DNA from: Rhodamnia argentea
Lineage: Eukaryota; Streptophyta; Magnoliopsida; Myrtales; Myrtaceae
Length of the DNA stretch: 64,000 bases
Reading direction: 5' to 3'
NCBI RefSeq assembly: GCF_020921035.1
Contig: NC_063156.1
Coordinates: forward strand, 12,288,501 to 12,352,500
Shown here: one piece after another, positions 10,676-45,692 of the stretch
How positions within the stretch are numbered: position 1 is the stretch's first letter
Layout: every line of letters starts with the position of its first letter
Program-made: the position numbers and the translations under genes
The notes under the pieces: generated by a model
What the model was told of the DNA's origin: nothing
Databases searched by the model: none
What the model saw: only the letters and a program-made list of their open reading frames with translations

Positions 10676-10717
10676 AATTGATGGCTGATACCGGCCAAAA
10701 AAAAATTAATTGATGGC
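10676..10717 (-). mobile_element. Micro-insertion with 10-bp target duplication (variant CCGGCC-A9)
   Basis: The direct repeat AATTGATGGC occurs at 10676-10685 and 10708-10717. Between the copies lie 22 bp (10686-10707) ending in CCGGCC, nine A and TT. Orientation by the A tract would be plus if read as an RNA 3' end. It resembles the GACC-poly-A micro-insertions elsewhere in the window with one base changed. Confidence 0.5.
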
Positions 10718-10798
10718 CAAGAAAGACTTCCGCCAAACTGGACGGATCGAAAATTCTCTTTACTTGAATCGGGCCGGATCGGGCCAATTGCATACTGC

Positions 10799-11085
10799 TT
10801 ATTTCTTTTTATAAGATGATTTAGGATTGGTAGCGCTATAAGGATTAGTCGCAGCTCCCCGGAATCGTGCCTCCTGCTGCATTTCATGATCAACAAATTG
10901 CTTCGCGGAAGCACGGCTTGCGTCGCCGGCTGAAGACGAGATGAGTTCGGGGTAATCGGAAGAACGCCTCACGCTTTCACGATCGACTATCCCCCCCATT
11001 TCACCCCGATGATACGAGCGAAAGCTGCGGAGGGTTGCTTCAAGGTCATGGAGACATTGGACCGGTCGCACTTTGCTAACCTACT
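10799..11085 (-). pseudogene. Unidentified exon-like ORF, possible gene fragment
   Basis: An open frame of about 95 codons on the minus strand ends at 10799. It reads protein-like (CLHDLEATLRSFRSYHRGEM, then DYPELISSSAGDASRASAKQ and KQFVDHEMQQEARF) and ends in KSSYKKK. It opens right after a TAG that could serve as a splice acceptor, and the first ATG inside it leaves only about 66 residues. I do not recognise the protein. It could be the last exon of an unrecognised gene or a processed fragment. Nothing upstream on the same strand supports a promoter. Confidence 0.3.
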
Positions 11086-11159
11086 CTTCTCGGATTTGCA
11101 CATGTGAAGAAGAAGAAGAAGAAGAAGAAAGACCGCTTCTTCTGTTTTTGTGACAACCG

Positions 11160-11203
11160 AGAGTGGAGCACGGTTTGGACCAAAAAAAAGAGTGGAGCAC
11201 GGT
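11160..11203 (+). mobile_element. Micro-insertion with perfect 15-bp target duplication
   Basis: AGAGTGGAGCACGGT occurs at 11160-11174 and again at 11189-11203. The 14 bp between them are TTGGACCAAAAAAA (11175-11188). A poly-A end plus a long direct repeat is the signature of target-primed reverse transcription; the body has been reduced to about seven bases. Confidence 0.75.
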
Positions 11204-11410
11204 GAGCCCGTTCTTTCCTTGGTGGGAAACTATTTTGAATATCATGGGCCGGGTTTGTGTCGGCCCATTGTGGGCGGATCCCACCCGGTCCGAACTCCAA
11301 CAGCTGTCTTGTGGTTGTGCAACATTCGGGTGAAATGCTGTAAATTGACGTTATTTTGTCATACGCATTTTATAATGGAAAAAATACGACTAGAAACTAT
11401 TAATTATATT

Positions 11411-11587
11411 CATTGTGACATATTTATCCCGAACTTTTTTTGTGACACAAAAAATCCCGAAATGTATCCATTATGACAAATTTAGCCCGAAGTTTTTTTT
11501 TTTTTTTTTATAACACCAAAACCCTTAAACTTGTAGCCTTGTTACACATTTATTTTCTATTAAGTTCAAGGTAAATGTGTCACAATG
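11411..11587. repeat. Small inverted-arm phrase element
   Basis: The left arm starts with CATTGTGACATATTTATCCC (11411) and the right arm ends with its imperfect reverse complement at about 11587. Inside, related phrases about unreadable sums such as ATCCCGAA and TGACA-ATTTA recur at intervals of some 40-60 bp around a 15-T run. This is the same architecture as the larger phrase-arm elements in the window. Confidence 0.5.
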
Positions 11588-11652
11588 AGCATAGTTCGAG
11601 ATTTTCCAGCACTCTCCAGGAGCCTCCATGTCGTGTCGTGTTGTATCCTACA

Positions 11653-12403
11653 TAGGGATGAACATGAGTCGGGTGGGTAGGGTTCAAATCTAGACCCCGA
11701 AACCAACCATGTTATAACTAGTTCTCAATTTTTGGAACCGAGAACTAATCCTGTTTATTCTAGAACCTATTTTGGAATTAACCCTATTTTTCGATTCGGT
11801 TCTAAGGTGTACCCGAGAACCTGTTTTCCTTTCATTTCTTTTTCCGATTTCATTTTTCCATCAAAATAATATGAGTATCCATGAAATGATCCAAATTAAA
11901 AGACGAATAATAAAACTCATTATTCGTCAAAAGTAACAATCCCTTATATGAGTAATAAAAATGACAATCTATCAAAAGCAATAATCCAAAATATAATAAT
12001 GAAAGTTACAATCCACCAAAACCAATAATGATCCTACAAAAAGCTAAATTAACAAGTGTAATTCTTCATATTACACTACCATCAAAATCCGCTAAAAATC
12101 TCTTATTTTTGTCTAACAAGTCAAAAAACTCGAAGCCCACTTTGAAACTTGCAAGATTGGTAAGGTTGGCAAAAGAAGCGAGATGGGGTTTTTTTTTTTT
12201 TTTTTCAAAACAGTAGCTAAAACCGATTCTAAAATCGATCCAGGTGATCTTCACCTAGAATCGGGAACGAGACCGGTTTCAACCGATTCCCAAAAATTGG
12301 AACCGGTTTCCAAATCGGTTTGAGCAGGAACCGATTCCCTACTCTATTTTTCAGGTGGTCCGATCCGACTTCCGAGCAAATCCGGTCCGGTTGCACACCC
12401 TTA
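11653..12403. mobile_element. hAT-type MITE, GGTTCCGG family, copy 1
   Basis: A 751-bp element begins TAGGGATGAACATG and ends ACACCCTTA. Its 8-bp flanks, ATCCTACA and GTCCTACA, match at seven of eight positions, as expected for a hAT target duplication. The interior repeats words such as GAACCGATTCC and ACCGGTTTC in both orientations near the ends. There is no transposase ORF. Three relatives lie at 29553, 34520 and 56227. Confidence 0.75.
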
Positions 12404-12745
12404 GTCCTACACTCTCCGACATGCAATCGTCTCGACACGCACATGATTAATTTTAAACATTTTTAATAAATTAGGGACGTTGAATCCCTTAACTCCACTA
12501 AATTCTTCACTATAAAGATGAGATCAATTGCGGAGGAGGAGGAGGAGGAATGTTCAATAATGTTACAACAGCTTAGGACCAAAATGCATGAAGTACATAC
12601 ACATCCTCCCTCCAAGGCATCGGTATCGGTGCGAAATTGGTTGGTGAAGCATCTTCTTTCTGCCCCAAAAGTTAAAAATGTACACCTTCCATTTGTAACA
12701 ATTGATTTCTTCTTCTCTACCAGACGACTTCCCATCAACATGTCT

Positions 12746-15260
12746 TCAGACTCCGGCCACAGCGTTGTAAGTACCATACACAGCAAAGAGCAGCCCGCAC
12801 ATCAAAATGCAAACATCCAGAGCCTTTTGCCAGAGTCTCAGGGAAGGACCCAACAGTAACAAATGGAACGAGGCCGGCAAAACGAACGAGAGAAGCGCGC
12901 AAACGGTGCTCCCCACGAGGGAGACAAAGGTTCCGAATCCCGGCACGCAAGATGCCAATGCCCCCAATCCTAACACCACCGCAGAACGGAGCACGTAAAC
13001 CGCGCAGTTCCCTATCTTTCTTTTCGAGCAAGTGAGCTCGTCGCCAAGAAGCTTCTGGTAACATTTGGTCCTTTTCAACTGATCTTCAAGAATCTCGTTG
13101 ATCGGATGTAACATGATAGGGAATGTGAATGCCAGCCCCAAGCACAAACCAATCTGTTACCGATTCAGCATAAATTAGTGAAGGTTAAGGGTTCAGGTTT
13201 GACAGGCAACACAAAAGATGACTGACAAACCAGCCAGAATGAATCTTAAGGCAATAGGACTTTAGTATGAAGTCCCTACTCAGAATCCTGACATTATCAG
13301 CAAAACTGGATGTATACATCATGAAGACTCATGTATCAAGGACTTGCATCTTTCGAGTCAAGTGTGGTTAACTCACACAGCTTCTCTGTTAGATTGATTA
13401 CATCACAACGGGGCTTGCTTGTTTAACAAACAAAAGAATTCCACAGAATACCACGTCGCCATATGAAATAAAGCACAAGATCTAGATTCTGGAATGAGCA
13501 TGAGCAATAGCAGTACCTCTATCAATTATACATACCCATGAAGCTTAATATTAGGACACATTACCTGGACAGCCACTGTTGTCCAAGCTCGGGGAAGATT
13601 AAGCGTGATAATGTCTTTCGTCTCATCGCCGTAAGCCATGTAACCGAAGAACCCGAACAAAACGTACACAAGTATTATGCCCGTAAGAGCCTTACCGAGC
13701 ACCTTTTGGAACGTCCTTCTCTCCTTCATTGATGCCTCCAATGCCAATGTCATTCCAAACCCCTCGAAACAGAAGACAGCCATTCCTCCCGCAAACGGCA
13801 GACCCCCGATATTTGGGGAGAAAGCTTTTCTATCACTAAACGAAAATTGACCGCCTAAAGCTTGCTGTATATCTTCTTTCACCACAAACCCCATGGCTAT
13901 GACATTGCATACATCGGCAAAGATGCTAAAGGGCGCCAATGCTGATAGAGTGCTTATCCATGAGAGAGCAATCTCAAGCGGCACCAGCAGAAATATGAAA
14001 GACGCAAAAGTCAGTCCATGGCCTTTAAATATGGAAGCAAGATTCTGTCCTATGAATACAAGGTAGGCCACAGCTCCTCCACACTGAGAAATCGTTACGA
14101 GGAACTCAGTGAGGTAGCGCCCAGCTTTTCCCATGCACTTACTACCCAAGTCCCCATAAGTTTTTACATCAGCCGACTCTTCTTGAGATGCCAATTGGTC
14201 TCTGCATTGAACCTGTATATATTAAGAGATAATGTTTCAGAAATTATCTTCTTGATGAAAAGTAAAGATTACAGAAAACAACAAACTAGCCAACGCAGTT
14301 ATGCAATAAAATCATGAAAAATACACTAAACAATATCACCAAGACAAAACTGAGGGATATACAGTCTGGTCCTTTTCGCTCAAGGGGCATGAGGTCTCGA
14401 GTTCAACTCATTCTCAACGAAATCTATTGGGCCAAGGTACATGGAATTCATTCCTCACAGATTCCTAGTCTGACACGGATGGCCTACCCCCACTGGACCA
14501 CGAGGCGGAGTCGATATTGGTGCGTAAAAACATGTCGAGCATATCACATGACTGTCAGTTGTCTCGCACGGCCGGCGGACATACACAAAAGCAACGCAGA
14601 TAGCCCCATTTTGTGGGTCCAATATGAAGCCATCGACAAATCAAGCTCAGAAGACCAGATTTGGGATTGAACCCAATTGGAGCCACACATCTAGCTGCTC
14701 AGGCACACTCGATCTACAAACACTCCCGGACAAAGTTTGCACTTTTAACTGAATAATTCAGGGATAAACCACTTGGATGAAACGAAGAGATTCAAAACAT
14801 AGACAACGTATACAACAGGACACTCAAAAGAACAAGAATTATACATTCGCCTATGAATCAGTAGCACTAATGTCAGGTCAAACGCTCAAAGGTGGTAGAA
14901 AGCAACCCCTGTTGCTATTTTCAGAACAACTGAAAACCCACAAGGCGTCACAAGAGAAAAAAAAGGAATGAAATTTGACAGAGGAAGGACCAGAAATGAG
15001 GAAAAGAAAAGCGGGGAATTACTTACAAGAATAAGCATGCAATAGTAAGTAGAAGCACCGGCGATCATAACCCCAACTGAACCCGCAAGCCAACCGGCGA
15101 TCTTGAAAGCGAAAGGCAAGCCCAGAACCCCCGTCCCGACAATGGAGACGATGATGTTGCCTAGAGTCTGAATCGACGAAGCAGATCCAGCGGCCGGCGG
15201 AGAAACGGAAGACGATTCGAGCAGCGGACTCGACGACCCTTTTCTTCCACCATCTTCCAT
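12746..15260 (-). CDS. ANT1: ANT1-type aromatic and neutral amino acid transporter
   Basis: Three phase-0 exons, 15027-15260, 13565-14212 and 12746-13153, give 429 aa. The product belongs to the AAAP/ATF amino acid transporter family and resembles Arabidopsis ANT1 (about 432 aa) along its whole length. Visible blocks are SIQTLGNIIVSIVGTGVLGL (residues 29-48), KTYGDLG, GRYLTEFLVTISQCGGAVAY, SALAPFSIFADVCNVIAMGF, GGLPFAGGMAVFCFEGFGMT, GYMAYGDETKDIITLNLP, FTFPIMLHPINEI and the C-terminal GLLFAVYGTYNAV. About eleven membrane spans are expected. ANT1 moves aromatic and neutral amino acids, and reportedly auxin. The start at 15260 fits the family; an in-frame ATG at 15335 would add 25 residues made largely from a GA microsatellite. 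Intron 1 (814 bp) holds a SINE-like insertion. Confidence 0.96.
14345..14560 (+). mobile_element. SINE-like insertion in ANT1 intron 1 (candidate)
   Basis: Within the intron, a tRNA-like promoter is visible: an A-box-like word (TGGTCCTTTTCGCTCAAGG at about 14368) followed by a B-box-like word (GGTCTCGAGTTCAACTC at about 14391). A GC-balanced body of about 150 bp follows, unlike the AT-rich intron around it. The 3' end and target duplication were not resolved, so limits are approximate. Its orientation is antisense to ANT1. Confidence 0.45.
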
Positions 15261-15345
15261 CGAATTCGACAGGGATGCTCCAAGTTCTCTCTCTCTCTCT
15301 CTCTCGCTCTCTGCTTTCTTGGAGCACCCACCCAACGTAAAAACC
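15261..15345 (-). promoter_or_regulatory. ANT1 5' leader with GA microsatellite
   Basis: Plus-strand CT repeats at 15286-15314 read as (GA)n in the ANT1 leader, just before the chosen start codon. No TATA box was assigned. Confidence 0.45.
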
Positions 15346-16286
15346 AGCAGCGTCTATCAATTTCGATCCAGAGTCGAGACGAAGAAGGCAAATGGCTTTT
15401 CTAAGAGCACAGTGACCGGACTTCAGTCGGCCACGTGGGGCGTGGCGTTGGGGGAGACAGGCTGGGAAAACCTGCCATAAGAAGATGGATACGGAATCTG
15501 CAATCCCAACAATATGATTGGGACATCATTAACTAGGGTTCACTAGATCTAGCAATTATGATAGCCAGATTGAGGACATTAAGATCTAAAAGACAAAAAA
15601 AAAAAAAAATACTAATAATAAACAAACAAAGGTGTCGCTTGCCATGTTTGCTTGGGCAATGACCGGGTAAGGTAGAGGCCCTAATGAGACGGGTCGAGTC
15701 GGGTCGAGTTGGGGCAGCACATGCAAGTCGGCACAGGATGGATATTTAGAGCTCACATCACGTCTCCGACACCCTATTCAGCCTACGCCCCATGTCCCCG
15801 CAATCGTGGATGAGAAAGTTCGTGTTCGATAGATTATAAATGTTAACTTCTGAAAATTATTATTGTATAAGAGCAATTACATATATGTAGTATTTTTTAA
15901 GGCTCCGTATGTTTCGCAAAAAATGAACGATTCGAAATATATTTTTCTAAAAATGAGTAGCTTATATTGCTTGCAAAATAAACGAACGAAAATACTTTCA
16001 TTGTTCACAAAATGGTTAAACCAAAAATTATTGTCGACCATGAAAATATATTTTATTGGCTAATTATTTCAAGTGATACAAATGACAATAGTTTTTTTTT
16101 TTTTAAATTTAAGTTATTCATTTTTCACAAAACAAATGACATCAATGATCTTTATAGGAAACCCAGCTTTGAACCGATTAGGATGGGTAAAACTAAAATT
16201 TAATTTACTACATTTCATTCTTGGTTAAATAGACTTCTTTAAACAAGCTTTAGTTAAATTGATTGAAATGCAAATAGGAAAATAAA
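15346..16286. other. Intergenic spacer
   Basis: AT-rich spacer between the ANT1 leader and the 908-bp MITE. It contains an A-rich tract at about 15594-15608. No gene, RNA or clear repeat was recognised. Confidence 0.5.
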
Positions 16287-17194
16287 GGGCGGCGCTATTT
16301 TCACTCCCATTTTAGCTCATGCACTCCTTTTTTCAATGAATAGACCGAAATATCATGCTCCCTCTTCAAGTTATTCTTTGTTTTTTTTATCAACCTAACT
16401 AACATAACTGCCTTTATTTTTATTTTTCCTTTTAAATATCAAATTACACCCAATAAAATATCATTATATTATACATCATGCTATCGCTTTTCATAGAGAA
16501 GTTCGTTATTCTTAATTTTATGATTTCATGCTTTTAAATAGAAAAGGTATACAAAATTTTAGAAATTTCTAATTATAACGACTCATGAACAAACAATTAA
16601 CTGTCTATTTTTTATGAAATAGTTTGAAGGAAACTTTATTTCAAAGTTGAAATTTAAAATCCAATATAATTATCAAGCAGATTTTGATCTTATGGATAAT
16701 TTTCAAATGGACTTGTAGGTTTCTAAAGTTACAAATTGCTCATTTATGCTTTTTTTTTAGCTTTTCACATTTTAATATAAATTGCAATATGAGTTGAAAA
16801 ATTGTTTACACATTTTGCACTTTCAAACTTGCGTAAGTTGATCCACTTGCTATGAGATTGAATTTACAATCCATATTAATTTCTTTCTTTATATCAAAAG
16901 TTGCACAACATGAAATTTCATGTTTTTTCCTTTATGTGTTTATCATTTATCAACACATATCTAAATGCAAATATGTTCAACATTGCATTATGCTTTTAAA
17001 AAGTTAATCTTTTCCATTTTGCCATCAAGTTTGCTTTTCTATTTTTATCAAGATGGACTAAAAATAAAGGTAGATTTGTGGATTAGCAAGATAAGAAAAG
17101 AAACATTTAATTGAAGAAAGAGGAGGGTATTTTAGTAAGTTAACTAGCAAAAAGGGGTGTCATAGCCCAAATGGGAGTGAAAATAGCGCCGCCC
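16287..17194. mobile_element. 908-bp MITE with 26-bp perfect terminal inverted repeats
   Basis: The element opens with GGGCGGCGCTATTTTCACTC and closes with the exact reverse complement. Identity is perfect over 26 bp and continues imperfectly to about 45 bp. The flanks GAAAATAAA and AAAAATAAA match at eight of nine bases, consistent with a 9-bp Mutator-type target duplication, though the flank is low-complexity. The interior is AT-rich and has no coding capacity. It is non-autonomous. Confidence 0.85.
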
Positions 17195-17584
17195 AAAAAT
17201 AAAATATATAAATATGGATAATTGAAGTTTTGATACACGTGCATCGAATTAAAACCCCACGTGGCCGTCATTCGACCCATCTCTCAAAATATCTGCAATC
17301 TCGACAGCTTTTCTTCGTGGTGGGACCGTAGTTTTATAAATATTTTGTCATAGCTTCTTGGTAGCACAAAACAAAAAGGAGTATATATGTATGACATATT
17401 TTTATCGACCGTGAGATTGTCAGCTTGTAAGTCATAAAAAATAATTAAAAATTATTATGGGCCCACTCTATTAAGAATTTGTGGACCTCGATATGCTGTT
17501 ATTCTCTCGGTTACCAAAAAATGGTTATACTAGCAAAATTCAAACAAAAATATTCCATACAAAGTATTTTGCCAAATTTTTAAA

Positions 17585-18472
17585 GGAAAATTTCAAAAAA
17601 GGGCCCAAAGTCTTTCTATTTTCTCAAATAACGGCCCCAAGTGAATTTTGTTTCAATTAAGGACATGAAATGTCCTCATTTTTTCAAACAAGAGTCTGAA
17701 GTGAATGTTGTTTCAAATAAGGGTCCGATGTAGCCATGAAATCTTAAAAAAGGTCTAATTTCAAGGGCATTTTCATCTTTTTATTTAATTGATTTTTTTC
17801 TTTTTTATTATGCTCTTCTTTTTTGTATGTTTCCTTTAAAATTAACAAAATAAATAAAAAAAAAGCACAGAGGTGGGAGGCCTATGGCCGCTACCCCACC
17901 GCTGGGGGAAGGGGGGTGGCAAAGGCCGGCAGGATCATCAACGCCTCGGGAAGGGCTGGTGACCGAGTCGACCAAAGGCAAGGGCCTCTGTTCCTCTCCT
18001 AGATTTGGGTGGGGGTTACTCGCCCCCACCCCGACTAGGGGAGGACTAGTGACCCCCGCCCGATCCCGGGCGAAGGCTTGACCCTCTCTCGATTTCGGCA
18101 AGGGCCAAAGGCCCTCGCCGAGGCGTCGGTAACCCCGCAGATCTTCGTTACCCCCATCGACCCCGCAGCAATGGCGGTTCGGCGCCCATAGGCGGGAGGG
18201 GTAGCCTCCCACATGTGTGTATGGCTTTTTTTTTTCTTTTTTTTAAAAGAAAAATGAAAATGGAAAAAAAGAGAAAAAAATAAACAAAAAATCAAAATGG
18301 GAAATGATGAAAATGTCTTAACGGCAGGCCCTTTTTTGAAACTCTATGGCCACTTCAAACCCTTATTTGAAACGTAATATGCTATTTCAGGTCATTATTT
18401 GAAACAATGTTCACTTTGGGATCCTTTTTTGAGAAAATAAGGGGACTTTGGGCCCTTATTTGAAATTTTTTT
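17585..18472. mobile_element. Inverted-arm phrase element with GC-rich core (GGGCCC family, copy 1)
   Basis: The ends are inverted: GGAAAATTTCAAAAAAGGGC on the left, GGGCCCTTATTTGAAATTTT on the right. Each arm carries several variants of a phrase like AAGTGAATGTTGTTTCAAAT-AAGGGTC every 45-50 bp. The arms enclose poly-T/poly-A stretches and a core at 17870-18215 that is very GC-rich (GGCAAGGGCC, CCCTCGCC words). Flanking A/T runs hide the target duplication. A 134-codon frame in the core is a composition artefact. Confidence 0.7.
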
Positions 18473-18964
18473 AAATTTTTTATTAACAAAAAACTTGAAG
18501 CCCCGCATGGCGCTTCAACATTGATTCATGAACCGACGTCATCTCGGTATTTTTCGTAATCGGACCGAGGCAACCTAACATGCCCCATCCGTCGGTTGCA
18601 TGCCAAATCCGGGCCCGCTTTGGTGCCAAAAATCAATTGGTCGTCCTTTTCTTTTTTTGTTTCACCCTTTTACATAGATTTTCACATGTTATAAAGTATT
18701 TGATATGTATTTTGAAGCATTTTCTAAATTTTAAATTTTTTGTATTTTTTTTTTACAAAATTTGGCCAATATATAGGGATGTCCCAAACCATTTGTCTCA
18801 GAGGTAAGTCTTCAACACAAGATCCTCCCTTCTGTTTTCTTATCGCCATGTACTTTTAAGAAACCATTGAGGTATTTAATATCATTTACTATATTTCTAG
18901 TTATTTTTTTAAATAGATCTAGACAAGAAAAATAGTCATTACTCCGCCAAAGTAATTCACAAGA

Positions 18965-19452
18965 AACTTTTCGGATAAAGGCCTGAAGTAGTCATGGGAG
19001 TTTCAAATAAGGGCCTTAACGCTGGCCGGCACCGGTGGCATTTTTTTTTTCCTAAAGACAAATTTTTATTTTTTTCTCATTTATTTATTTTTCTTTGTTA
19101 TGGCCAGCAAAGGCCGGTCTTGTGTGAGGTGACCCTCGCCTAAGCTTAGCTATGGTCGACCCTTGTCTAGTCCTCTTTGGGCATCCCCTGTGGCCGATTA
19201 AAAAAAAAAAGGAAAAGAAATATGAAAAAGTAAAAAATGAAAATGCCCTTGACCAAGGTCAAACCTTTCTTTGAGATTGAAATGCTCACTTTAGACCCTT
19301 ATCCGAAATAATGTTCATTTCAAACTTTTATTTAAGAAAACATGACACTTCAAACCCTTTATTTGAAATAAGGTTTACTTTCAATAAGGTTTACTTTCAG
19401 ACTCTTATTTGAAAAAATGAGAGCACTTTAGGCCTTTAATTGAAATTTTACT
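18965..19452. mobile_element. Inverted-arm phrase element, GGGCCC family, copy 2 (left arm shortened)
   Basis: The left part reads ATAAAGGCCTGAAGTAGTCA and TTTCAAATAAGGGCC; the right part repeats TTATTTGAAA-AA-GTTTACTTT phrases and ends at AATTGAAATTTTACTT. The core at 19100-19190 again has GGCCGG and CCCTCGCC words. The left arm is much shorter than the right, so this copy looks truncated. Confidence 0.55.
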
Positions 19453-19483
19453 TAATTCATAATTTATTTTTACTAGGTTAACG

Positions 19484-19530
19484 AGTTTTCATACTCTCTC
19501 TTTTTTTTTTGGTCGAATAGTTTTCATACT
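19484..19530 (-). mobile_element. Micro-insertion with perfect 12-bp target duplication
   Basis: AGTTTTCATACT occurs at 19484-19495 and 19519-19530. The 23-bp insert (19496-19518) is CTCTC, ten T, then GGTCGAAT. On the minus strand this reads ATTCGACC followed by poly-A, matching the other GACC-poly-A micro-insertions. Confidence 0.72.
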
Positions 19531-20452
19531 TAAAGTTTTGCATAAAAAATAAAAATCCATATATAGATGGTTAAAAGCCCGAGATATGGAGTCATGATAT
19601 GACATAAAGAGCCATGAATCATTTCTCTTAATAACATCAATCGCGAAATTTAGAGTTCGGTTTCTTATATTAGGGACCACAAATCTTTGATTACCCGCAT
19701 AGAATCGAGCTTCTTTCGTATCCTCATCTAAATAGTGTTTTTTTTCCCCTCTACGTAAGGGTCATTTTCATCAAGAGTGATCGGTAATGAGTCTAATATT
19801 TTCAAAATCGAAGTCCTTCTTCAACTCGAACTGTATCCAGTAGCGAACATTTAAGAAAGGCGCTACATGTCGGTGAATCTAGCCGTAGGTTTGACTGAAT
19901 CCGGCGGGCGGCGGACTAAGCTTCTCTAAAGAAGTCCCGGACATGCAACTCGATGTGTGATCGTCTTTATGGGTGCGGACTAAGTCGGGATCAATCCGAG
20001 AAATGGCACAGTCGATTGAAATTACACGTCGATTCATTTCGGTGCAAGTTATATTTCTATCTAGTGTGCTTATCAAACGGATGAAAGAGTGACCCCACCA
20101 TGATCGTTGTTGCATCCGATCTCGAGATATAATTCGACAAAGCCCACTTCTAAACTTACTCGCTCTACGACGCTTGATTGAAAAACAAGCCAGATAGACA
20201 AAATTATCAACTCATGTTAGATTTACCTTGTCACTTCTTAATCGTTAATTTTCCTAACCCCTTGATGTTTCGGATCGATGACTCTATTTTAGAATTACCA
20301 GAAAGTCCTCGACCTTAGATGAACAAGCAATCGTGTTTGAAGGGTAGTTAAGGGATTTCATAAGTAAAAACGAAACCTTTTTTTTATCGGATATATGTAT
20401 CTGTATAGAGAAGTGACGTGGATTTTTTTTTACTAACAAAGTAAAATAAAGA
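19531..20452. other. Intergenic spacer
   Basis: Mixed-composition spacer. I see no gene, RNA or obvious repeat in it. Confidence 0.45.
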
Positions 20453-20915
20453 GTTAATACCACCAAAAATCTCAAATTGATATACATGTGACAAATTTAC
20501 CTTAAACCGGTACGGTTGTGCTAAATTTACTCTTCGTTAGTTTCCGTAAAATTTTACCGTTAAATTGCTAAGTTAGATGACACGTTGCAATTGTCGAGTG
20601 TACATGTTACCCTATATTTGTTACGGGTTTATCAATTTGAAATTTTTCATGATATTAACTCAATTTAACGAAAACTGACAGAGGGTAAATTTGTCACATG
20701 CGTATCAATTTGAGATTTTTTATGGTAAAAAAATTAATTCAGAGTACATTTATCACGGTTATACCAGTTTAGGGTTTTTGGTGGTTAAAAAAACAGTTCG
20801 GGGTATATTTATCACAAATGTACCAGTTTGAAATTTTTGGTGGTAATAAAAAAAAAATAGTGTAGGACAAATTTATCACAGGTGTATTGGTCCAGATTTT
20901 TTCGTAGTATTAATC
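20453..20915. mobile_element. Inverted-arm phrase element (GTTAATA family, copy 1)
   Basis: It opens GTTAATACCACCAAAAATCT and closes with an inverted counterpart ending GTATTAATC. Both arms repeat the phrase GACAAATTTACC / GGTAAATTTGTCAC with CCGGTAC or GTACCAGTTT words at 60-70 bp spacing. A related copy lies at 60619-61135, sharing the centre word AAATTGCTAAGTT. Confidence 0.65.
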
Positions 20916-27859: not shown

Positions 27860-28212
27860 AAGATTGAAAAAATTATCCAAAAAGTCCTAAACTTATTACA
27901 CTTGTGTCAATTCAGATTGTGCAATTCAGTCCTAAACCTTTTGACAACTTGCGAATCCAGTCCTAAATTTTTCAATTATGACAATTTGGTCATAAACCTT
28001 GCCAAACTAGTCTTAAACCTTTTCAAGAATTAGTAATTTAGTTCTTCCGGCCAATTACTCAAATAAAAGATTTAAGACTAAAATGGCAAACTTTCAAAAG
28101 ATTTAGGACTAAATTGAAAAAATTTCAAAATGTTTAAGACTAAATTGACATAATTAAAAGATTTAGAACTGAATTCGTAAGTTGTCAAAAGGTTTTGGTA
28201 ATTTCCCCCACC
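27860..28212. mobile_element. Inverted-arm phrase element (GTCCTAAAC family), no core
   Basis: The left arm carries four variants of CAGTCCTAAACCTTTT at about 36-bp spacing. The right arm carries the reverse complement (AAAGATTTAGGACTAAATTG). They meet near 28045 without a GC-rich core. End positions are approximate. Confidence 0.65.
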
Positions 28213-28297
28213 GAAAACTCTTTAGTCCCGATTGGTGGTTTAACCTTTAGACTTTGGTGGTAAGCTTTTATCCAATCTAACCTTTATCCTTGGCTGA

Positions 28298-28735
28298 GGA
28301 GAAATTACCAAACAAGTCCTAAACCTATTCTACTTGTGCTAATTCAATCCTAAATATTTCAATTGTGTTAATTTAATTCTAAATCTTATGATGATTTGCC
28401 AATTTATTTCTAAACCCTTCAATTGTATCAATTTAGTCCTAAACGTTTTGAAATTTTGCCAATTTAGTCCTAAATCCTTTGAAGTTCTGTCATTTTAGTC
28501 ATAATTCTATTATCGGAGTAACTAATCGGAATGACTAAATGGACGATTCGTTAATAGGTTTAGAACTAGTTTGGTAAATCATTAAAAGGATTGAGACTAA
28601 ATTGGCATAATTGAAAGATTTAAGATTAACTTAGCAAATTATCAAAAGGTTAAGGACTAAATTGACATAATTGAAAGGTTTAAGACTGAATTTGTATAAA
28701 TGTAATATGTTTAGGACTTTTTAGATAACTTTTCC
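28298..28735. mobile_element. Inverted-arm phrase element (GTCCTAAAC family) with 9-bp target duplication
   Basis: The 438-bp element starts GGAGAAATTACCAAAC and ends with the inverted match AGATAACTTTTCC. Flanks CTTGGCTGA (28289-28297) and CTTGGCTAA (28736-28744) differ at one base, supporting a 9-bp target duplication as in Mutator-type transposons. Its arms are tandem CCTAAACCTTTT-type phrases and their complement, with no core. Confidence 0.75.
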
Positions 28736-36319: not shown

Positions 36320-36372
36320 AATCCAGATCATTCTTTTTTTTTTTTTTTGGTAACCGAATCCAGATCATTCTT
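36320..36372 (-). mobile_element. Micro-insertion with perfect 16-bp target duplication (variant GGTAACCG)
   Basis: AATCCAGATCATTCTT occurs at 36320-36335 and 36357-36372. The 21-bp insert is thirteen T followed by GGTAACCG; read on the minus strand, CGGTTACC plus poly-A. The capping word is related to, but not identical with, the GACC caps of the other micro-insertions. Two T of the repeat may belong to the T run. Confidence 0.7.
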
Positions 36373-36795: not shown

Positions 36796-37467
36796 TACTA
36801 TTAATCTTCTTAAATGCAGTACCTGGATCCGAATTTTTACACACTATGCAGTAAGGGTTTGTGGATGCGAAGGAGGGAATAATACGCTTCTCTTTAAAGC
36901 CTTTAAGCTTATGCATGCCGGGTTTAGAGATGGGAGCTAGCTGGGAGACATCCCAAACCCTATCCACTAACTTTTGAGTCTAATTCATGTTCAATCCGAG
37001 CATTTTGCCGTAACAGCTCTCGAGTTCGGGTTTCGAGTCATCCACGAGTCCAATTCCGAACTCGTTCAATACCCGTTGAGATTATGTAGGTGAAATTTAG
37101 CTATTATCGTGTGGTCCTAGATTGCAACCCATCTATCTAGAGCTTTTTAGGGTTCGCGCCGGTCATTCTATCAGTCCCTACTCATTATCAATTAGGATGG
37201 TCGGTTCCACAAAATGGAAATCGGCACCCCACCCATTGAAATGGGAGAGTGATTGAGATAAATCGTCAATTTTCTTTCTCTTTATTTTTTGCATGTGGAA
37301 CTCTTTTTCGTATCTCAATTATCGGGACGATTTTAAAATGAAGTTTTTACATCAGACGAAATCGCAATTCAAATCAGAATAATTTTCCTTTCCGCTGATA
37401 ATTGAAGCATACAACGGCGGTGTTGAGGGACCGGGGTCGCCATCCATCGCCCGCGATCCCCAAAATT
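36796..37467. other. Intergenic spacer
   Basis: No gene or clear repeat was recognised. Confidence 0.4.
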
Positions 37468-37659
37468 CCACGTGGAGGGCGCTGCAGCAATCCGGGTGGG
37501 CACGTGTCGAGCCATGTGAGGTCAGGCGCGTATCGCCAATCTTCCACTGGCGGTGACGTGTCGAGACTCGGGCTCTGTGCCGGACACGTGGCGGAGGAAG
37601 GACGGCTCGTCAGGAGGAAAAGGCCAGGAGGCTGCGGGTGCGCACGTCCCCATCACGTG
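37468..37659. promoter_or_regulatory. Cluster of ACGT-core (G-box/ABRE-like) sites
   Basis: Within 192 bp there are four CACGTG palindromes (37469-37474, 37501-37506, 37585-37590, 37654-37659), plus GACGTG at 37555-37560 and an ACGT at 37644-37647. Such words bind plant bZIP (ABF/GBF) and bHLH (PIF/MYC) factors. The stretch is GC-rich in an AT-rich surrounding. No flanking gene was found, so the target promoter is unknown. Frames on both strands across it look like noise. Confidence 0.55.
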
Positions 37660-38134
37660 ACCTCTACCGCGGATTGGGCGGCACCGCCCTGTCGCCGGTC
37701 CCAAAGGAGCTTCATGAAGGAAGCGTGGGATACATATTCCTTTTTTTTGAAATTTAATATTCTGAGCCAACCCAAACGTCGTTTTCGATTCGCCGAGTAT
37801 TTTAAATCTATATATATTTTTTAGCAAAAAAAAAAAATTGGCGATTTGCATCTTAAACTTAATTTTAATTTGCGACATCTATTCGAGTTTAGAACTTATA
37901 ATTGTCCTTCGAGTACTAAAACACAACTAGCGGTCGGTTAATCCATTGCCGCAGACTGTTAAGATGAAATACTCGATAGATTTGGTATTAAGTCTTCCTC
38001 GTTGCATGGACAACCTAAAATTATTTTGTTCCAAAAAAGACAAGGCATAAAAATTTAGCCCTAGGGTGCATCGAATTCCATGCCGATAACAAATTCACGT
38101 CAGCAAATTGACGAGAAAAATTATCTTTAAAGCG
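37660..38134. other. Spacer
   Basis: AT-rich; no feature recognised. Confidence 0.35.
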
Positions 38135-38400
38135 GAAGCGTTCTTTAGTCCGAGATCGGGGAAATTAGGAAGCGACTCAAAGCAATTTTTGGACGAAGGG
38201 CTAACGGGAGGAAGATTTGATAGTAGAGTTAAAGTTGATTATTTTAAACAAAGAGAAAAAGTTTTGAGATAGATTTGAGACTGAATCTAAAATCAAAGGT
38301 TTGTTATATATATATAAAAGTTCAGGGCAGATTTAAACTGGATAAAAGAAAAAGTTGGAGGTAGAATTATAAATGGACCTACGGAGTTCTTTTACGGGAT
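38135..38400. mobile_element. Half of a phrase-arm element related to 62628-63328
   Basis: The stretch at 38188-38220, starting TTTTTGGACGAAGGG, matches 63067-63099 closely. It is followed by right-arm phrases such as AGTTGGAGGTAGAATTATAA. No inverted left arm is visible, so it appears to be a truncated copy. Confidence 0.5.
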
Positions 38401-40972
38401 TTAGGCAAAAAAAATTTAAGAACACTCGCTAAACATGTTTGGGGAGCGAATTTCCGATTTCCAAATTAGCGTTTGCGTTTGTGTGTATCACGAGGCCAGA
38501 CAACATCGATAGATATATTATTTTATTTATAATTATTTAATTTTGTATTTTTTAGGATACTTTTTAATAATATATTTTTTTGAATATTTCTACTAATGAT
38601 ATATCTATTTTTTTTTTTTGGGGGTCCGAGGTATATCTGGTTGAAATCTGGTGATCATGTGATGGGTCTCATTCTGGCTGGCATCATTGGGAAGCATCAG
38701 TGTCTAAAAAGGAACCAACCGCTCACGACGCAGTCTCGGTCATGCTCCATGTCGAAAATTACAAAAGCCAAAAAAAAAAAAAAGACTCACCAATCATCAA
38801 ATAATTTTTTTTTCCAAAAAAAAAGGGGTCAAGAAAAAAGGCCACTTATCCAAAATGCAGCAAAAAAAAAAAAAGAGAAAAAAAAAAAGAAGGAGTACGA
38901 ATATTGACCGGGAAGAAGAGAAAAACAAAAAAGGAGAAAGGCGAGGACACGTGTCGGGCGTCGGTTGTCCGACGGTGACCAGTCATCCACCAGCGGAGAC
39001 AGACAGCTCCTGATCAGGAACCACCCACCAAGCACCACCAACGATGTCCTTTTTTCGGCCACTTTGTCCCACATCAATGTCACCTCCCGACAGCTATCAT
39101 CGCCGGAGCAGCCGCTTTCCCTTTGCTGCCCTCCTATTTTAGATCAATCTACCATTTGGACCTCCCTCCCCGTGACATTGGGTCATTAAGTGGGAGAGCG
39201 ATAATTTCACCAACAACCACTTTTAATCTATTCAATATAATCCTTCAATTTTAATCTAATATAAAATGTGATATTTAAACTTTTGATATATATTCAATCC
39301 AGTCATTAGAGACAATATTAAATATTGTCACCGAACTTAAATTGATAGAATAGCAACATTGAACTCGGGGACCGAATCGAATACATACAAAAAGTTTAAG
39401 AACCACATTAAATAAAATTAAAAGTTCAGGGGCTATTTATGTTATGTCCCGTAAATTAGAAGAAGAAGAATGTATTTCGTGTGTAGGGAGAGTAGTAAGC
39501 TAATCAGAAGTGAGATTTTAGAATTCAAATGGAAGTTGGTAGGGACGCTATTATGCGGGTAATGCGATTGATCAATTATGCTATGTCATTCATGTAATCA
39601 AAGTATTTTCTCGAGAAGAAGTCCTCTTTGGTGCAAAAGATTTTTATCCATCTATAACCGAAGCTCAATCTTCTCATCTTTTTTTTTTTTTTTCCTCCCT
39701 TCTTTCTCGTGTTCGTTACAAGTTTGTCCGAGTCAAGCTCCAGTAAGTATGTTAGTCTCTGAATTTTTTCTTTCTAGCGGATGCTGTAATAAAGTCGCTA
39801 ATCTTCTTTATTCGACCACTCGATATGGTAAACTTTCATCCCCTTGTAATCGATGCACTTCGATCAAGATTTCACCGATTTTATGGAGAAATGCCGTATG
39901 GAGGATCGTTACGTGACCGTTTTTGCATTTCGCGGGACAAGTAGTTGAATTCTAGTTAAAGTTCATAAACCACAAAGAAATGAAAGCATCATGCATCGAG
40001 TAACTGAAATCGAAGTTCAATGACCTCACCGATGAAATTCGGCCTCCGATGTTCCCAACCTATACGTAAATTGAACCGATAAGTGTTCTTTACTTATATT
40101 TTATCCTATTTGCCGCGATGGAGATACATAATCATCTAAATCAATAGACCGCAAATTTTCTATGCTTGAATGCTATTGAGTTTGGAGAATGCCTCTCTTG
40201 GGGTGCGAGGAAGGCGCACCTAATAAGCTGGGATTAGATTTGCAAAGGGAAGGATCAAGAGGACTCCGAGCGCACATGATAACATATATGGAGTAGAATT
40301 TCTGATTTAAAAGTGCTTCTAGAGCACAAATCTGTTTGATAACTCAATTTCTCGAACGGAAATTCGTTTGGTTACACAACTTCATTTTTCTACTTTCGAA
40401 ATACATTTTTTTTCGCTCCATAAGTAATTTTGGAGCCACTTGAATAAGTAAACAAAAAAAAAAAAAATTCTACTTCTCTCTCGAAATAGAAAAAATCAAC
40501 GTCTGCTCAGAAGCTGAAGTAGAAAAATCAAATTCCCGGCCAGAGCAGAAGTGTCGCCATGCGCACGCTCCTAAGCTTTCGAAAAAAGGGATGAAAGGGA
40601 CAAAGCCTCTTTTGTGGGCTGGAGATTCCTCATGGAAAAGGATAAGATCATAGACGATGGTGCAGCATAACAAATGATGCCCCGTGCCTAGCCGCGGTGT
40701 GCAATACCGTTCGGAAGGGGAACGGTGAACAGCTGGAACGATGTGAACGAAGCTGTGAAGTGGATGGTAGGGAATCCCAATCGTTGGATGATGATGGAAA
40801 AAACCCTTTTGGATCCCGTTCCTTTCCTTAAAAAAAATGACCGGGTCTTTCGAAAGATACTTCTCTCTAAAAAGTAATTATTTATATCGCTCGAAATAAT
40901 TAGTCGACGAAAAAGTAATTGCAAATATCTTGCTTATATTTCACGGCGGTTATAGCTCATTTATGAAATCCG
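38401..40972. other. Gene-poor spacer
   Basis: This contains A/T homopolymer tracts (38770-38890, 39680-39695), a single CACGTG at 38948-38953, and a possible small inverted-arm element at about 39215-39450 with ATTCAATCCAGTCATT / GGGACCGAATCGAATAC arms. A possible weak micro-insertion (T12 then GGGGGTCCGAG) lies at about 38607-38630. No gene was recognised. Confidence 0.4.
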
Positions 40973-42150
40973 ATGATAGTTTGGACTCAACACGATGCAG
41001 CTCGTCCTTATTTAACCTCGTTTTTATAGCATATGTTTGATGATAAATCGCAACAATAATAGCAATTATTCGATATGACAATGATAATGAGATCTCCTCT
41101 TAGAAGACCAAAAAATGTGGTCGGAAATAGCTTGGTGGGCGTGCATTCTCGTAGCTGTCACATGGAACAATCATGTGGGAGCATGCGGGGCATTGCCCTT
41201 TCAACATCTACTTTTGAATACGCAACATCTATCAAGATTGTTTCTAATGACGGAACTAATATATAAATGATATGAAAAAAAAAAAAAATGAAACGAGATG
41301 TTTAAATACGTAGAAAATATTTAGCCAGTTCGACGACCCCGATAAAAATATGCCGGTCTCTAGAAAAAAAAAAACCTTTATATATACATCTAAATGAAAA
41401 AAACAAAAAATTATTGCAAATAAAGATGGTGTACAATATTGAGTCATCGGATGTTCATAATATAAATGTCGGTCAAACGAAGACAAATGATTATTTCGAC
41501 CGTAAGGCTTCATAAATTCTTGTCGATCCTAAGCTAATGACTAAGTCTAATATTTTGCCACTACTTCCTCTATTAAAACGAAAGCCGTTCAAGCCCATGA
41601 TGCATCGTAAATCTTATAATGATTTGTTAGGTTTCTAAGTTGACACGAGATGACACGAGAACTTGTCTATTGACAATAAATATTGTCAATACATATGTCT
41701 ATATATACGATATAATTCGAGCATGAAGACAAGCAAGGGGAAAATGGCAATGAGAAGTAGATTGGATAATCTTTTGGAGAGGGTGATGACAAGGGAAAAG
41801 TCGGGAGGCTAATTAGTTCTATGCTTTATGGTACAGCAAGGTACGTAGCAAGGTCCAAAACAGAATTTTTTTTTTAAATGGTCCAAACAGCAAAATCACA
41901 ATGCCAAAATTTGTAATGTCACTCTCAGCCACATCTTTCGTTTTAATTGCCAATAACGTCTCAGCTAGGGGAAAGCTGGAAACACGAAGATGTCCTTCGT
42001 CTCTAGTGCATTGTATGCCCCCGAACAGGTCCCGTTCATCTGTACTCGGGGAGTTGATGACAATTCGCAACTTTTATCGTGACACCGAAGAAGAGGTCGA
42101 ACCAATACTTAAATTCTGTCCTATTCAATCTTGATTGTACATTACAATCC
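40973..42150. repeat. Local direct duplication, copy A
   Basis: Three blocks (40973-41050, 41089-41205, 41560-42150) match, in the same order and strand, 43252-43320, 43465-43565 and 44262-44850. Shared words include GATCTCCTCTTAGAAGACCA, TGTCACATGGAACAATCATG and CGTCTCTAGTGCATTGTATG. Identity by eye is roughly 80-85 percent. Copy A lacks the phrase-arm element found in copy B and so shows the empty site TACTTCCTCT at 41562-41571. No coding function was recognised. Confidence 0.75.
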
Positions 42151-42188
42151 TATACTTTTTTTTTTTGGTCGGGTACAATCCTGTACTT
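42143..42188 (-). mobile_element. Micro-insertion with 15-bp target duplication
   Basis: TACAATCCTATACTT (42143-42157) and TACAATCCTGTACTT (42174-42188) differ at one base. The 16-bp insert is nine T and GGTCGGG; on the minus strand, CCCGACC plus poly-A. Confidence 0.72.
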
Positions 42189-42231
42189 CATTTGCTAAAG
42201 TTCCTTCACTAAGGTGTTAGTTTGCCAACGC

Positions 42232-42277
42232 TAAATCATCTAGTATTTCTGTTTTTTGGTCAGATAAATCATCTAGT
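42232..42277 (-). mobile_element. Micro-insertion with perfect 13-bp target duplication
   Basis: TAAATCATCTAGT occurs at 42232-42244 and 42265-42277. The 20-bp insert is ATTTCTG, six T and GGTCAGA; on the minus strand TCTGACC, A6, then CAGAAAT. It lies only 44 bp from another micro-insertion. Confidence 0.7.
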
Positions 42278-43251
42278 TTAAAGAGTAATATATAGAGTTT
42301 TGCATGTTGCCCTCCTAATTGGGATTGTATAAGTACCGGCATGGATGGCCTGTCCTTAGCTAAATCGAAAAGATGAACCGTTTGGTCAGGTCCTTCTTTA
42401 CTTTCTTTGGCTATGACGGGGGTTCGGAACTCTTTTACCACCCAACTAATCCTTGCCAAGTATCAGCATTCTTGATATGTTGTGTTAAGGAGCACGTGCC
42501 AGGGTATTAAGCGAAAGAAATCATGCAAGTGTAGGACGGCCGGTGACGACGACGTGGCGGTGGCTGGTGATGACCGGACCTCCACATCATCAATTTTCTA
42601 GCGAAATTTAATCGGAAGGATTACATTAAAATTTCACATAAATGTCTAGGACTAAATTAGCAAAATTCGAAAGTTTGTGATTGAATTGGCATCCGTACGA
42701 TAAGCTTAGAATTGACGAGACAATTTCCACTTGAAATCTCGGTGTCTAAAGACGGACCGTTTTTCTTGACTTGAACTAATGTTATGTGAAGTTAATCCCA
42801 AATAACACCGCTAAGTACAATAGCAAAGAAAAAATAACATGTCCAAGTTTGTAACTACGACTCTCGTTATAACATGTCCCCCCGGTTTTTCAATGAGGCT
42901 TTTGATTACATTTGGGCATTGGATTTCAAATGATAAAAACAATAGACAGGCGAGGCTTTTAATTTGCTGCAAAAGAAGAATGAGAATGTTTGTATTTCTA
43001 AAGAAATTTCCCATAAATTCACTTACAAAAAAAGTCATAAGGCCATTTCCTCCATCAATTTACGAAGAGATTTCTATTCACTTTATCTAATCACAGTTAT
43101 CTTTATCACGAGTCTTCCCTACGAGTTCTATTCTTCATATTTGAACATTTGCCTTCATTTTCTTAGTAAAAATCGTGTTTTTATTATGCGTTAATGAATT
43201 ATTTTTTTTAATAATTTGATGGGAAAATTGTCCACAAAGTTATAAACATAG
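42278..43251. other. Spacer containing half of a phrase-arm element
   Basis: The stretch 42585-42735 reads as a right arm of the GTCCTAAAC family (GTCTAGGACTAAATTAGCA, GATTGAATTGGCATC), without its left arm. No gene was recognised. Confidence 0.4.
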
Positions 43252-43311
43252 TTTGAACTCATCACGATCCAACTCTTCCTGATTTAACCTTGTTTTTATA
43301 GCATATATTTG

Positions 43312-43348
<37 letters not shown>

Positions 43349-43361
43349 GAGTTATTTAATG

Positions 43362-43404
43362 TGACGCCATTTTCTGACCAAAAAAAAAATTATGACGCCA
43401 TTTT
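43362..43404 (+). mobile_element. Micro-insertion with perfect 12-bp target duplication
   Basis: TGACGCCATTTT occurs at 43362-43373 and 43393-43404. The 19-bp insert on the plus strand is CTGACC, ten A and TTA, in the opposite orientation to most of the other copies. Confidence 0.72.
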
Positions 43405-43728
43405 GATTTTGGCTAAGTTACAATTATGATACCACTCCCCCCAATTTAAGATAACTATTTCCGAGATCTCCTCTTAGAAGACCAAAATGTTGGCAAAAAT
43501 AACTTAGGGGGCATGCATTCTTATCGTTGTCACATGGAACAATCATGTGTGAGCATGCAGTGTTCAACCACAAGACTTAAGATATTCTCATCTAGAAATG
43601 CATGTCCCAAGCTAACATTCCACAAATATGAAATAACAACATCACATGAACAAAGTGATATAGTTTTGATTCGGTAATCTTGTACAAAGTAAAGTATAAC
43701 GACTAATAGATTGATACTTACTTCCTCT

Positions 43729-44266
43729 GGGAAAAGTACTAAAAAAGTCCTAACCCTTTTAATTCGACCAATTTAGTCCTAATCATTTTGCATTAGTGCC
43801 AATTCGGTTCATTCCGCCAACTTTGGTTGGAAATTGCTGACATGGATGCGGTCGTCCTATGTGTCACGATTGGCGCCGACATGAGCAAATTCTACAAATT
43901 TGTCACATTTTTCCTGATTTTTTTCTTTTTATATTCATTTTGGCCAGTGAGAGCCGCCAAGCCCCCCTTGCCAATTTCGACGAGCGTTGAATCCTCAAAG
44001 TGACCCTCGCCTTCCAAAATGGAAAAAAAAGAAAGATAAAAAAAATCAGAAAAGTAAAAAAAAAACTGTAAAATTTATTCATGTTAGCACCGCTCATGAC
44101 ACGTAGAGCTGTTGACACCTATGTCAGCAATTTTCGACAAAAGATAGTCCGATGAATTGAATTGGCACAAATACAAAAGGTTTATGACTTAATTAGTCCG
44201 ATTGAAAGTATTATGACCGAATTGGTAGCAATGCAATAGGTTTAAGACTTTTTTGGTGCTTTCCTC
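43729..44266. mobile_element. Inverted-arm phrase element with clean target duplication (GTCCTAAAC family)
   Basis: The 538-bp element has inverted ends GGGAAAAGTACTAAAAAAG and, reverse-complemented, GAGGAAAGCACCAAAAAAG. TACTTCCTCT flanks it on both sides (43719-43728 and 44267-44276) and occurs once in the duplicate copy at 41562-41571, which is the pre-insertion site. Arms carry AATTTAGTCCTAATC phrases and the core (43940-44010) has GCCGCCAAGCCCCCC and CCCTCGCC words. There is no coding capacity. The 9-10 bp duplication suggests mobilisation by a Mutator-type transposase. Confidence 0.85.
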
Positions 44267-45050
44267 TACTTCCTCTATTAAAAAAAAAAAAAAACCGTTC
44301 AAGTCCATGCATCATGAATATTTTGATGATTTATTAGGTTTTTAAGTTGACACGATATGCCAATATATAAATATTGTCTGTATATATGTCCATATATGCA
44401 TATGATTCGAGCATGAAGATAGGCAACGGGAAGCTGGCAATGAGAAGTAGATTTGGACAATCTTTTGGAGAGGGTGATGACAATGCAAAAGTCGGCAGGC
44501 TAATTAGTTCTCTGCTTTATGGTACAGCAAGGTACGTCCATGGTCCAAAAGAGAATTTTTTCACCAAAGAAGATAGTACCAAACAGCAAAATCATATTGC
44601 CAAAATTTGTAACGTTACTCTTCTCAGCCACATCTTTCATTTTGATTGCCAATAGCGTCTCAGTCGGGGGAAAGCTGGAAACATGAAGATATCCTTCGTC
44701 TCTAGTGCATTGTATGTCCCCGGACTGGTCCCGTTCATCTGGACTCGAGAGTTGATGACAATTCGCAACTTTTACCCTAACGTCGAAGAAGACATCGAAC
44801 CAATGCTTTAATTCTGTCCTATTCGACCCTGATTTGACATTAAAAGTATATTGACTTTTCTTCGATAATCAAATACATATTGTTTGTAATATATGATTCC
44901 ACTTGTAAAGCGAGTTCAATTCTTCACAAGAATGCCAGTTTTTACTTTTTGCCCGTGTATTATCATATGAACATACCGCATCAATTCGAGAGGGTACGCA
45001 TGTAGAGACAAAAAGAAAAAGTTTGTGTAAATGAGGCCGTGCATGGGAAA

Positions 45051-45692
45051 AGGATACTTTTGGTGCCAAAGTTGTGTACGGAGATCACTTTGGTGTTAAA
45101 AGTTTCAATTGGATCACTTAAGTGCCAAGTCGGAGACAAAATGATCACTTTGGTACCTCCGGCAGAAATTAATACGTGGCTTTTCAATTAAAATTTTAAT
45201 GTAAAATGACATTAAAAAAAAAAAGAAGTGCACGTGGATTTCTACACTTTAAAATAAATTAAAATAAATCAAATTTAAATTAAAAAATCAGGTAAAACCT
45301 AAATTTGTTTAAAACACAAAATTTATTCAAAATAAATTAAAATAAGCTTTAAAAAGCTTAAAATTTAAAAAGAAAAAGAAAAAAATTGGAGGAGGCAAAG
45401 GATGAGGCGGCGAGGGCTACAACAAGCCCTCGCCGTCGTTGTCCCACCATCGCTAGCAACGGCTAGCACGGGTCATCAAGCCTCGCCCAGGGGCCGCCGC
45501 TTGCTTAGGACCGAATTGACACTATTAAAAGTTTTAGGGTTGAATTGACCGAAAAATCAAAAGGTTCAGAGTTTTTTTTGGTCGGAAAAAGGTTCGGAGT
45601 TCAATTGACAAAATTAAAAGGTTTAGGACTGAATTGGCCAAAGTGCAACAAGTTTAAGGCTTTTTGGATAATCGTCCCTAATTTGACAGAGT
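45051..45692. mobile_element. Chimeric inverted-arm element (two different arms)
   Basis: The left arm opens GGGAAAAGGATACTTTTGG and repeats GATCACTTTGGTG-type phrases. The right arm instead belongs to the GTCCTAAAC family (GGTTTAGGACTGAATTGGCC) and closes GGATAATCGTCCC. The core at 45380-45500 is GC-rich (GGCGAGGGC, CCCTCGCCGTC). The terminal few bases still pair as GGGA/TCCC. A micro-insertion sits inside the right arm. Confidence 0.5.
45559..45601 (-). mobile_element. Micro-insertion with 15-bp target duplication inside a phrase arm
   Basis: AAAAGGTTCAGAGTT (45559-45573) and AAAAGGTTCGGAGTT (45587-45601) differ at one base. The 13-bp insert is six T and GGTCGGA; on the minus strand TCCGACC plus poly-A. 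Because the host is an arm of phrase repeats, the direct repeat alone is weaker evidence here, but the GGTC-capped T run fits the series. Confidence 0.6.

Follow-up and report, generated by a model that had tools for sequence, protein, structure and literature searches.

Known L1-made copies and the micro-inserts of the window

Short interspersed nuclear elements (SINEs) carry a poly-A tail and target duplications, use the machinery of long interspersed nuclear elements (LINEs) and possess a real RNA body. The micro-inserts described here were studied in a 64,000-nucleotide stretch of Rhodamnia argentea (the window, C7:12288501-12352500, taken from a genome of 346.66 Mb in 74 contigs) and then across that genome. 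Each consists of a body of a few nucleotides, closed by a cap such as GACC and followed by a poly-A tract, between two direct repeats. Their nearest described relatives are products of L1 LINEs. The 5'-truncated L1s of mammals, as presented in the accessible part of PMC2837659, share with them the poly-A, duplications of similar length, an A-rich target and an intact 3' end with the 5' part missing; they average about 900 bp in human, whereas the main class found here has a body of 7-8 nt. In the same way, the dicot retrocopies made by L1 have poly-A, target duplications and LINE machinery but, in the excerpt of PMC4838847 used here, carry a real RNA body, whereas the present inserts hold nothing beyond the last L1 nucleotides.

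Among plant L1 LINEs, those of the Ta11 type have an ORF2 that ends in an archaeal-like RNase H, according to the accessible part of PMC5348765, which does not mention 7-nt copies. Three sampled L1s of this genome with a GACC end resemble them, zf-RVT being followed by a domain of RNase H type; the same micro-inserts are also made by a second kind of L1, in which RNase H was not detected. Neither a dominant 7-nt product nor such a class of inserts was found among the titles and abstract openings of the open-access literature, most subscription journals lying outside this scope. The machinery and its mode of action are known; what appears to be new is a variant of L1 truncation and not a new kind of element.

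A preliminary description, made from the letters of the window alone, had reported eight micro-inserts with direct repeats, six perfect and two with one mismatch. All eight were recovered as described, the mismatches being at 42158 and 45574, with repeats of 10, 15, 12, 16, 15, 13, 12 and 15 bp in the order of the following list, where loci of the genome are designated by L and a number.

10676-10717, plus strand: micro-insert TGATACCGGCC-A9-TT (insert 10686-10707), with 10-bp repeats AATTGATGGC on each side
11160-11203, plus strand: micro-insert TTGGACC-A7 (insert 11175-11188), perfect 15-bp repeats; the body is the final 7 nt of the L1 in L092
19484-19530, minus strand: micro-insert ATTCGACC-A10 (insert 19496-19518), perfect 12-bp repeats; the L1 in L100 ends in TTCGACC
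36320-36372, minus strand: micro-insert CGGTTACC-A13 (insert 36336-36356), perfect 16-bp repeats; TTACC (5 nt) is the end of an L1 of the second kind
42143-42188, minus strand: micro-insert CCCGACC-A9 (insert 42158-42173), 15-bp repeats with one mismatch; CCGACC (6 nt) fits L1 ends
42232-42277, minus strand: micro-insert TCTGACC-A6 (insert 42245-42264), perfect 13-bp repeats; TGACC (5 nt) fits the L1 in L093
43362-43404, plus strand: micro-insert CTGACC-A10 (insert 43374-43392), perfect 12-bp repeats; TGACC (5 nt) fits the L1 in L093
45559-45601, minus strand: micro-insert TCCGACC-A6 (insert 45574-45586; tail A8 when the As common to tail and repeat are included), 15-bp repeats with one mismatch; the L1s in L091, L094 and L107 end in the same 7 nt as the body

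Flanking repeats, caps and L1 ends

On its two strands, the window holds 233 runs of at least six As. Seven of them are capped by GACC, and six of these seven are flanked by repeats; the remaining one, at 41107, showed no flanking repeat in the window scan. Thirteen runs had repeats, namely the eight loci and five others, which lie in low complexity (18274), inside a dispersed repeat (60951 and 61012) or between 10-bp repeats that enclose 32 and 44 bp (29643 and 16104, respectively). When 20 arbitrary 10-kb stretches were added to the window (264,000 bases, including 2,500 N), repeats flanked 8 of 12 GACC-capped runs of at least six As versus 15 of the 814 other A-runs (Fisher p 4e-11). Repeats are thus not equally frequent around arbitrary caps; equal frequency would, according to the preliminary description, have been fatal to its proposal. 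Without the window, in which the pattern had first been noticed and which is richer than average (7 GACC-A6 runs per 64 kb versus 5 in all 20 stretches), the figures become 2 of 5 versus 12 of 588. A scan of the same set that ignored caps retained 21 repeat-flanked runs out of 245 with at least eight As, versus 1-3 with swapped flanks. Ten of the 21, six of them from the window, have L1-like caps (GACC, TTACC, GAC, GACCCCC) and bodies of 6-9 nt; one is the locus 10686 and the remaining ten have other caps or sit in low-complexity or dispersed repeats.

Genome-wide, the caps exceed their reversed controls 14- to 330-fold: GACC-A10 occurs 4,305 times versus 304 for the reversed pattern, TTACC-A10 1,886 versus 133, CCTTACC-A10 1,001 versus 3 and TTCGACC-A10 1,101 versus 8. 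The first 69 GACC-A10 sites listed, all from the start of C1, were read, and 67 entered the duplication count, two sites in the tandem array L081 being omitted. For TTACC-A10, 40 of the first 43 listed were read, the three in L036, L065 and L081 having already been collected. The duplication threshold was passed by 33 of the 67 GACC sites, versus a mean of 0.15 after flanks had been swapped between sites, and by 25 of the 40 TTACC sites, versus none. This disappearance of the repeats supports the proposal that LINEs made the inserts by target-primed reverse transcription and that copying ended very early. Scaled from these first few Mb of one chromosome, inserts with A10 or longer and a visible duplication number around 3,000 in the genome.

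The five further runs of the window, and the loci L045, L046 and L076, mimic the pattern, as chance or poly-A slippage between pre-existing repeats would do. The swapped-flank and cap controls, the cap excess and the empty paralogues (see the last section) go against this explanation; for the family as a whole it is already refuted and keeps a negligible probability. Taken singly, the locus 10686 could be chance. With a GGCC cap and an 11-nt body, it is the weakest of the eight; no source was identified for CCGGCC, which has no match worth naming among the sampled L1 ends.

Longer copies ending in GACC-poly-A, which the preliminary description recommended seeking, do exist and are L1 LINEs. 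Twenty L1 elements, picked from the zf-RVT list by a long open frame or a good score, were read downstream of zf-RVT. Eight of them end in GACC-poly-A (TTTCCGACC, TTTGGACC, TTTTCGACC, TTATGACC, TTCATGACC, GGTTGACC), one (L106) in TTATGAC-poly-A and six in CTTACC, CTTTACC or (L108) TTACCC, each followed by poly-A. RVT_3, an RNase H-like domain, follows zf-RVT in all three GACC-type L1s scanned (L091, L092, L105), and the two scanned L1s of the TTACC type (L096, L104) gave no Pfam match downstream of zf-RVT. The 3' untranslated region (UTR) measures 19-31 nt in seven of the nine GACC or GAC L1s, the exceptions being L093, which has no stop before the tail, and L100, which has an early stop; it measures 247-403 nt in all six TTACC-type L1s. 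Reverse transcriptase (PF00078) and zf-RVT lie within one open frame in L104, L105 and L106, judging by their place and by equal frame length. At least two kinds of L1, distinguished by RNase H and by the length of the 3' UTR, yield micro-inserts.

The letters that precede GACC vary among L1 ends, so the variable letters of the inserts fit different L1s and are not necessarily noise. For the same reason, and because TTACC at 36336 belongs to the second kind of L1, the idea of one RNA family with a shared cap had to be given up. Among the inserts of the window, agreement with the sampled L1 ends covers 7 nt at 11175, 19496 and 45574, 6 nt at 42158 and 5 nt at 36336, 42245 and 43374. In a set of 66 non-redundant inserts with GACC, TTACC or TTTACC caps, from which a filter kept bodies of 3-12 nt, 45 are identical to the 3' end of an L1 of the same genome over at least 7 nt. 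Cap variants were also seen: GAC-poly-A and GACCCCC-poly-A occur in L106 and in two L026 sites, near 293 and 7014, that resemble such micro-inserts.

The uniform anatomy of the inserts could recall an independent, minimal SINE-like retroposon family with its own source gene, an idea implied by the terms of the preliminary description. No common body was found beyond the L1 end, the letters fit differing L1 ends and, as detailed below, bridging copies run into L1 sequence. Bodies of 4-10 nt do not show an RNA body of SINE type with an internal promoter. When 24 unresolved sites were compared with one another, their common parts were just other dispersed repeats or short stretches. Such a family is thus highly improbable. 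A source in tRNA 3' ends (N-CCA followed by poly-A) had been envisaged and was abandoned once the L1 ends were found. Upstream of the 69 GACC-A10 sites no similarity to L1 coding sequence was detected, about 40 of these sites offering just about 130 nt upstream; the same search recovers 130-nt pieces of real L1 ends. It is nearly certain that the inserts derive from L1 through target-primed reverse transcription.

Insert lengths and the proposed arrest of L1 copying

Among the 66 inserts, bodies of 4, 5, 6, 7, 8, 9 and 10 nt are represented by 2, 4, 6, 30, 17, 6 and 1 inserts, so that 47 have 7-8 nt, and the GACC and TACC groups each peak at this length. Compared with 14 L1 ends, 37 inserts match over exactly 7 nt. 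Unmatched extra letters are absent from 43, single in 14, two in 4 and three or four in 5. The preliminary description had given bodies of about 6-10 nt: the early stop holds, and a sharp peak at 7 nt replaces the spread. The body keeps to about 7 nt in inserts whose A-runs range in length between 6 and 18, which indicates that the stop is measured from the poly-A junction and not from the priming point.

Copies of intermediate length were also found. The last 12 nt of the L1 of the second kind, ACTTACCTTACC-A10, occur at 184 sites versus 1,001 for the last 7 nt (CCTTACC-A10), so the next five L1 letters are present at just 184 of the 1,001; this ratio is an estimate, as a 12-nt pattern would miss subfamilies diverging further upstream, and it covers the CCTTACC type alone, the corresponding 12-nt end of the GACC type being TTCTTTTCGACC. 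It agrees with the TTACC-A10 sample, where micro-inserts make up 18 of 21 CCTTACC sites. From the first 18 listed among the 184, 16 were read over about 320 nt upstream (L115, already collected, was omitted). Exact duplications of 13-16 bp enclose bodies of 15 nt (L149), 16 nt (L150), 33 nt (L161, 100% identical to the L104 end) and 168 nt (L162). A candidate 11-bp duplication lies at 225 nt in L153, and the remaining 11 copies match L1 over 86 to 321 nt. The truncation series thus includes 15, 16, 33 and 168 nt and longer copies, 7-8 nt being predominant, and these four copies bridge the micro-inserts and ordinary truncated L1s.

We consider it fairly probable that each insert is an L1 copy with an extreme 5' truncation, left when target-primed reverse transcription was aborted early, at an almost constant point; the cause of the stop is the part that holds our overall confidence at this intermediate level. 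First, an A/T-rich target would be nicked by the L1 protein, as is suggested by duplications that mostly begin with AA. The poly-A tail of the L1 RNA would then anneal and prime reverse transcription, judging by the anatomy of the inserts. The enzyme would copy the tail, then about 7 nt of L1, and usually halt there, so that the 7-nt peak would reflect an enzymatic stop. Often no letter, sometimes one or two, would be added; the second strand would be cleaved at a distance of about 15 nt, and repair by the host would seal the gap, giving the duplication of 11-19 bp. During the proposed abortive phase, the L1 complex would grip the RNA just upstream of its ACC-poly-A end. Most attempts would end before release, and the minority escaping this grip would give ordinary truncated or long copies. 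The presence of ACC ahead of poly-A in both kinds of L1 suggests that the protein may recognise that end.

A stop whose distance to the poly-A junction is constant would suit a short template: a nuclease, for instance, would already have severed the L1 RNA about 7 nt before poly-A, and the enzyme would run off a short tail fragment. Extra letters beyond 7 nt would also suit such a run-off at a template end. This is the strongest rival to an abortive stop; it is nevertheless unlikely, as the same cut would be required in both kinds of L1, whose upstream letters differ.

The lengths could also result from retention: L1 inserts of every length would arise, the long ones being lost by selection or deletion and the tiny ones remaining. 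Plant genomes do lose inserted DNA, and many long copies are clustered at C6:150000-830000. However, harmlessness gives no basis for separating 7 nt from 15-50 nt, and bodies of 12-50 nt were found at only 3 of the 16 12-nt-end sites read. The scarcity of 12-nt ends among the CCTTACC-A10 sites and the predominance of 7-8 nt bodies also disfavour retention, and the duplications, perfect in 46 of the 66 inserts, leave little time for trimming. Retention bias is, for these reasons, improbable, more so than a pre-cut template.

Other causes of the stop were rejected. The predicted folding of five L1 3' ends does not exceed that of their shuffles (z -0.97 to 0.61), which speaks against a stop caused by a stable RNA hairpin. 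At the 5' junction, microhomology, which is significant in the accessible part of PMC2837659, was not evident here, the last base of the duplication being the next template base in 11 of 27 cases versus 9.1 expected. A ribosome halted at the stop codon was discarded, as 3' UTR lengths differ between the two kinds of L1 and the 7-nt stop is common to both.

Several observations weigh against an abortive stop of L1 copying as the general explanation. Five of the 20 L1s have other or unclear ends (L089, L090, L095, L098, L102), so that the ACC end is not general. Among the inserts of the window, only three out of eight agree with an L1 end over 7 nt. In the larger set, 5 of 66 match over just 4 nt and 5 of 66 have three or four unmatched letters, perhaps owing to comparison with only 14 L1 ends. 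The collection by caps is blind to bodies below 4 nt, and the cap-free scan, a small sample, gave two weak ones among its 21 runs. Cases in the arbitrary stretches outside the window are few (the two GACC runs mentioned above). A duplication above threshold is absent from 34 of 67 GACC sites and 15 of 40 TTACC sites. About ten of the former resemble decayed duplications by eye (L003, L005, L034, L036, L043, L048, L057, L067, L070, L072); one of the latter, L115, is a longer L1, which accounts for only part of these sites. Finally, three of the 33 GACC sites that passed (L045, L046, L076; bodies of 13-16 nt) belong to another dispersed repeat.

Put more generally, and more tentatively, the reverse transcription of plant L1s might have a built-in abortive phase, in which escape is needed after about 7 nt; most attempts would fail at this point and be sealed as they are into the chromosome. 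If most entries of L1 into a target stop after about 7 nt, counts of activity from annotated copies miss the main product, the undercount for CCTTACC ends being roughly four to one. The genome would then preserve, like fossils, thousands of failed jumps that repeat annotation overlooks because they are too short; each would rebuild its target and could seed tandem arrays, as perhaps in L081. A sharp stop would also give a handle on a poorly known step of target-primed reverse transcription, the one at which initiation gives way to elongation, and this step would become testable by a sequence census alone. The inserts add short poly-A tracts and 11-19 bp duplications to the genome, and they could serve as presence/absence markers.

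Target sites, empty sites and other features of the window

The duplications of the 66 inserts measure 11-19 bp, within the roughly 7-20 bp expected of L1-type insertion, and, in the inserts read, the poly-A tail is at the 3' end and adjoins one copy of the target. Their first position is A in 94% and their second in 80%, and T is found in 50% two bases before. The nick site is thus A-rich, its exact place being ambiguous since As are common to tail and target; the full TTAAAA motif was not evident at the nick sites of these inserts.

Empty sites, whose absence the preliminary description would have taken as a refutation, were obtained for two inserts as paralogues in the same genome (about 74-77% identity) and not as alleles. 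The insert 45574 sits in a dispersed repeat, another copy of which holds the target only once, its junction being free of gaps:

28600-28728, minus strand: empty site for 45574, a paralogous dispersed repeat with 74% identity and an ungapped junction

The insert L136 has several empty relatives within the window. Two other candidates were rejected: an empty 42158 site in the duplicate near 44 kb, where similarity stops just ahead of the insert, and the alignment of L006 to 57262-57401, which is too gapped.

In L081 (G000:C1:3966880-3967300), at least five successive micro-inserts with GACC and TACC caps occupy about 190 bp, each being followed by a copy of about AACTCTTTATT. As an insertion rebuilds its own target, tandem arrays may grow by repeated insertion, L081 being a possible case of this.

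Elsewhere in the genome, the L1 copies clustered at G000:C6:150000-830000 lie on one strand, with many zf-RVT and ACTTACCTTACC-A10 places on the minus strand. Within the window, a tandem segmental duplication (41089-42144 / 43463-44842) has matching blocks about 2.4-2.7 kb apart and about 82-85% identical; the inserts 42158 and 43374 lie near its edges. Two dispersed minisatellite-like families, with units of about 30 and 60 bp, are found at 20458-20886 and 60606-61136 and at 27911-28735 and 50408-50497; both recur at other loci of the genome and some copies contain micro-inserts. A nearly perfect (98%) tandem duplication of 104 bp lies at 63539-63747. The window also contains a Zein-binding domain, which belongs to a plant-specific family, and ARAGORN predicts a tRNA-Arg (CCT) at 3637-3709 and a tRNA-Cys (GCA) at 60342-60416.

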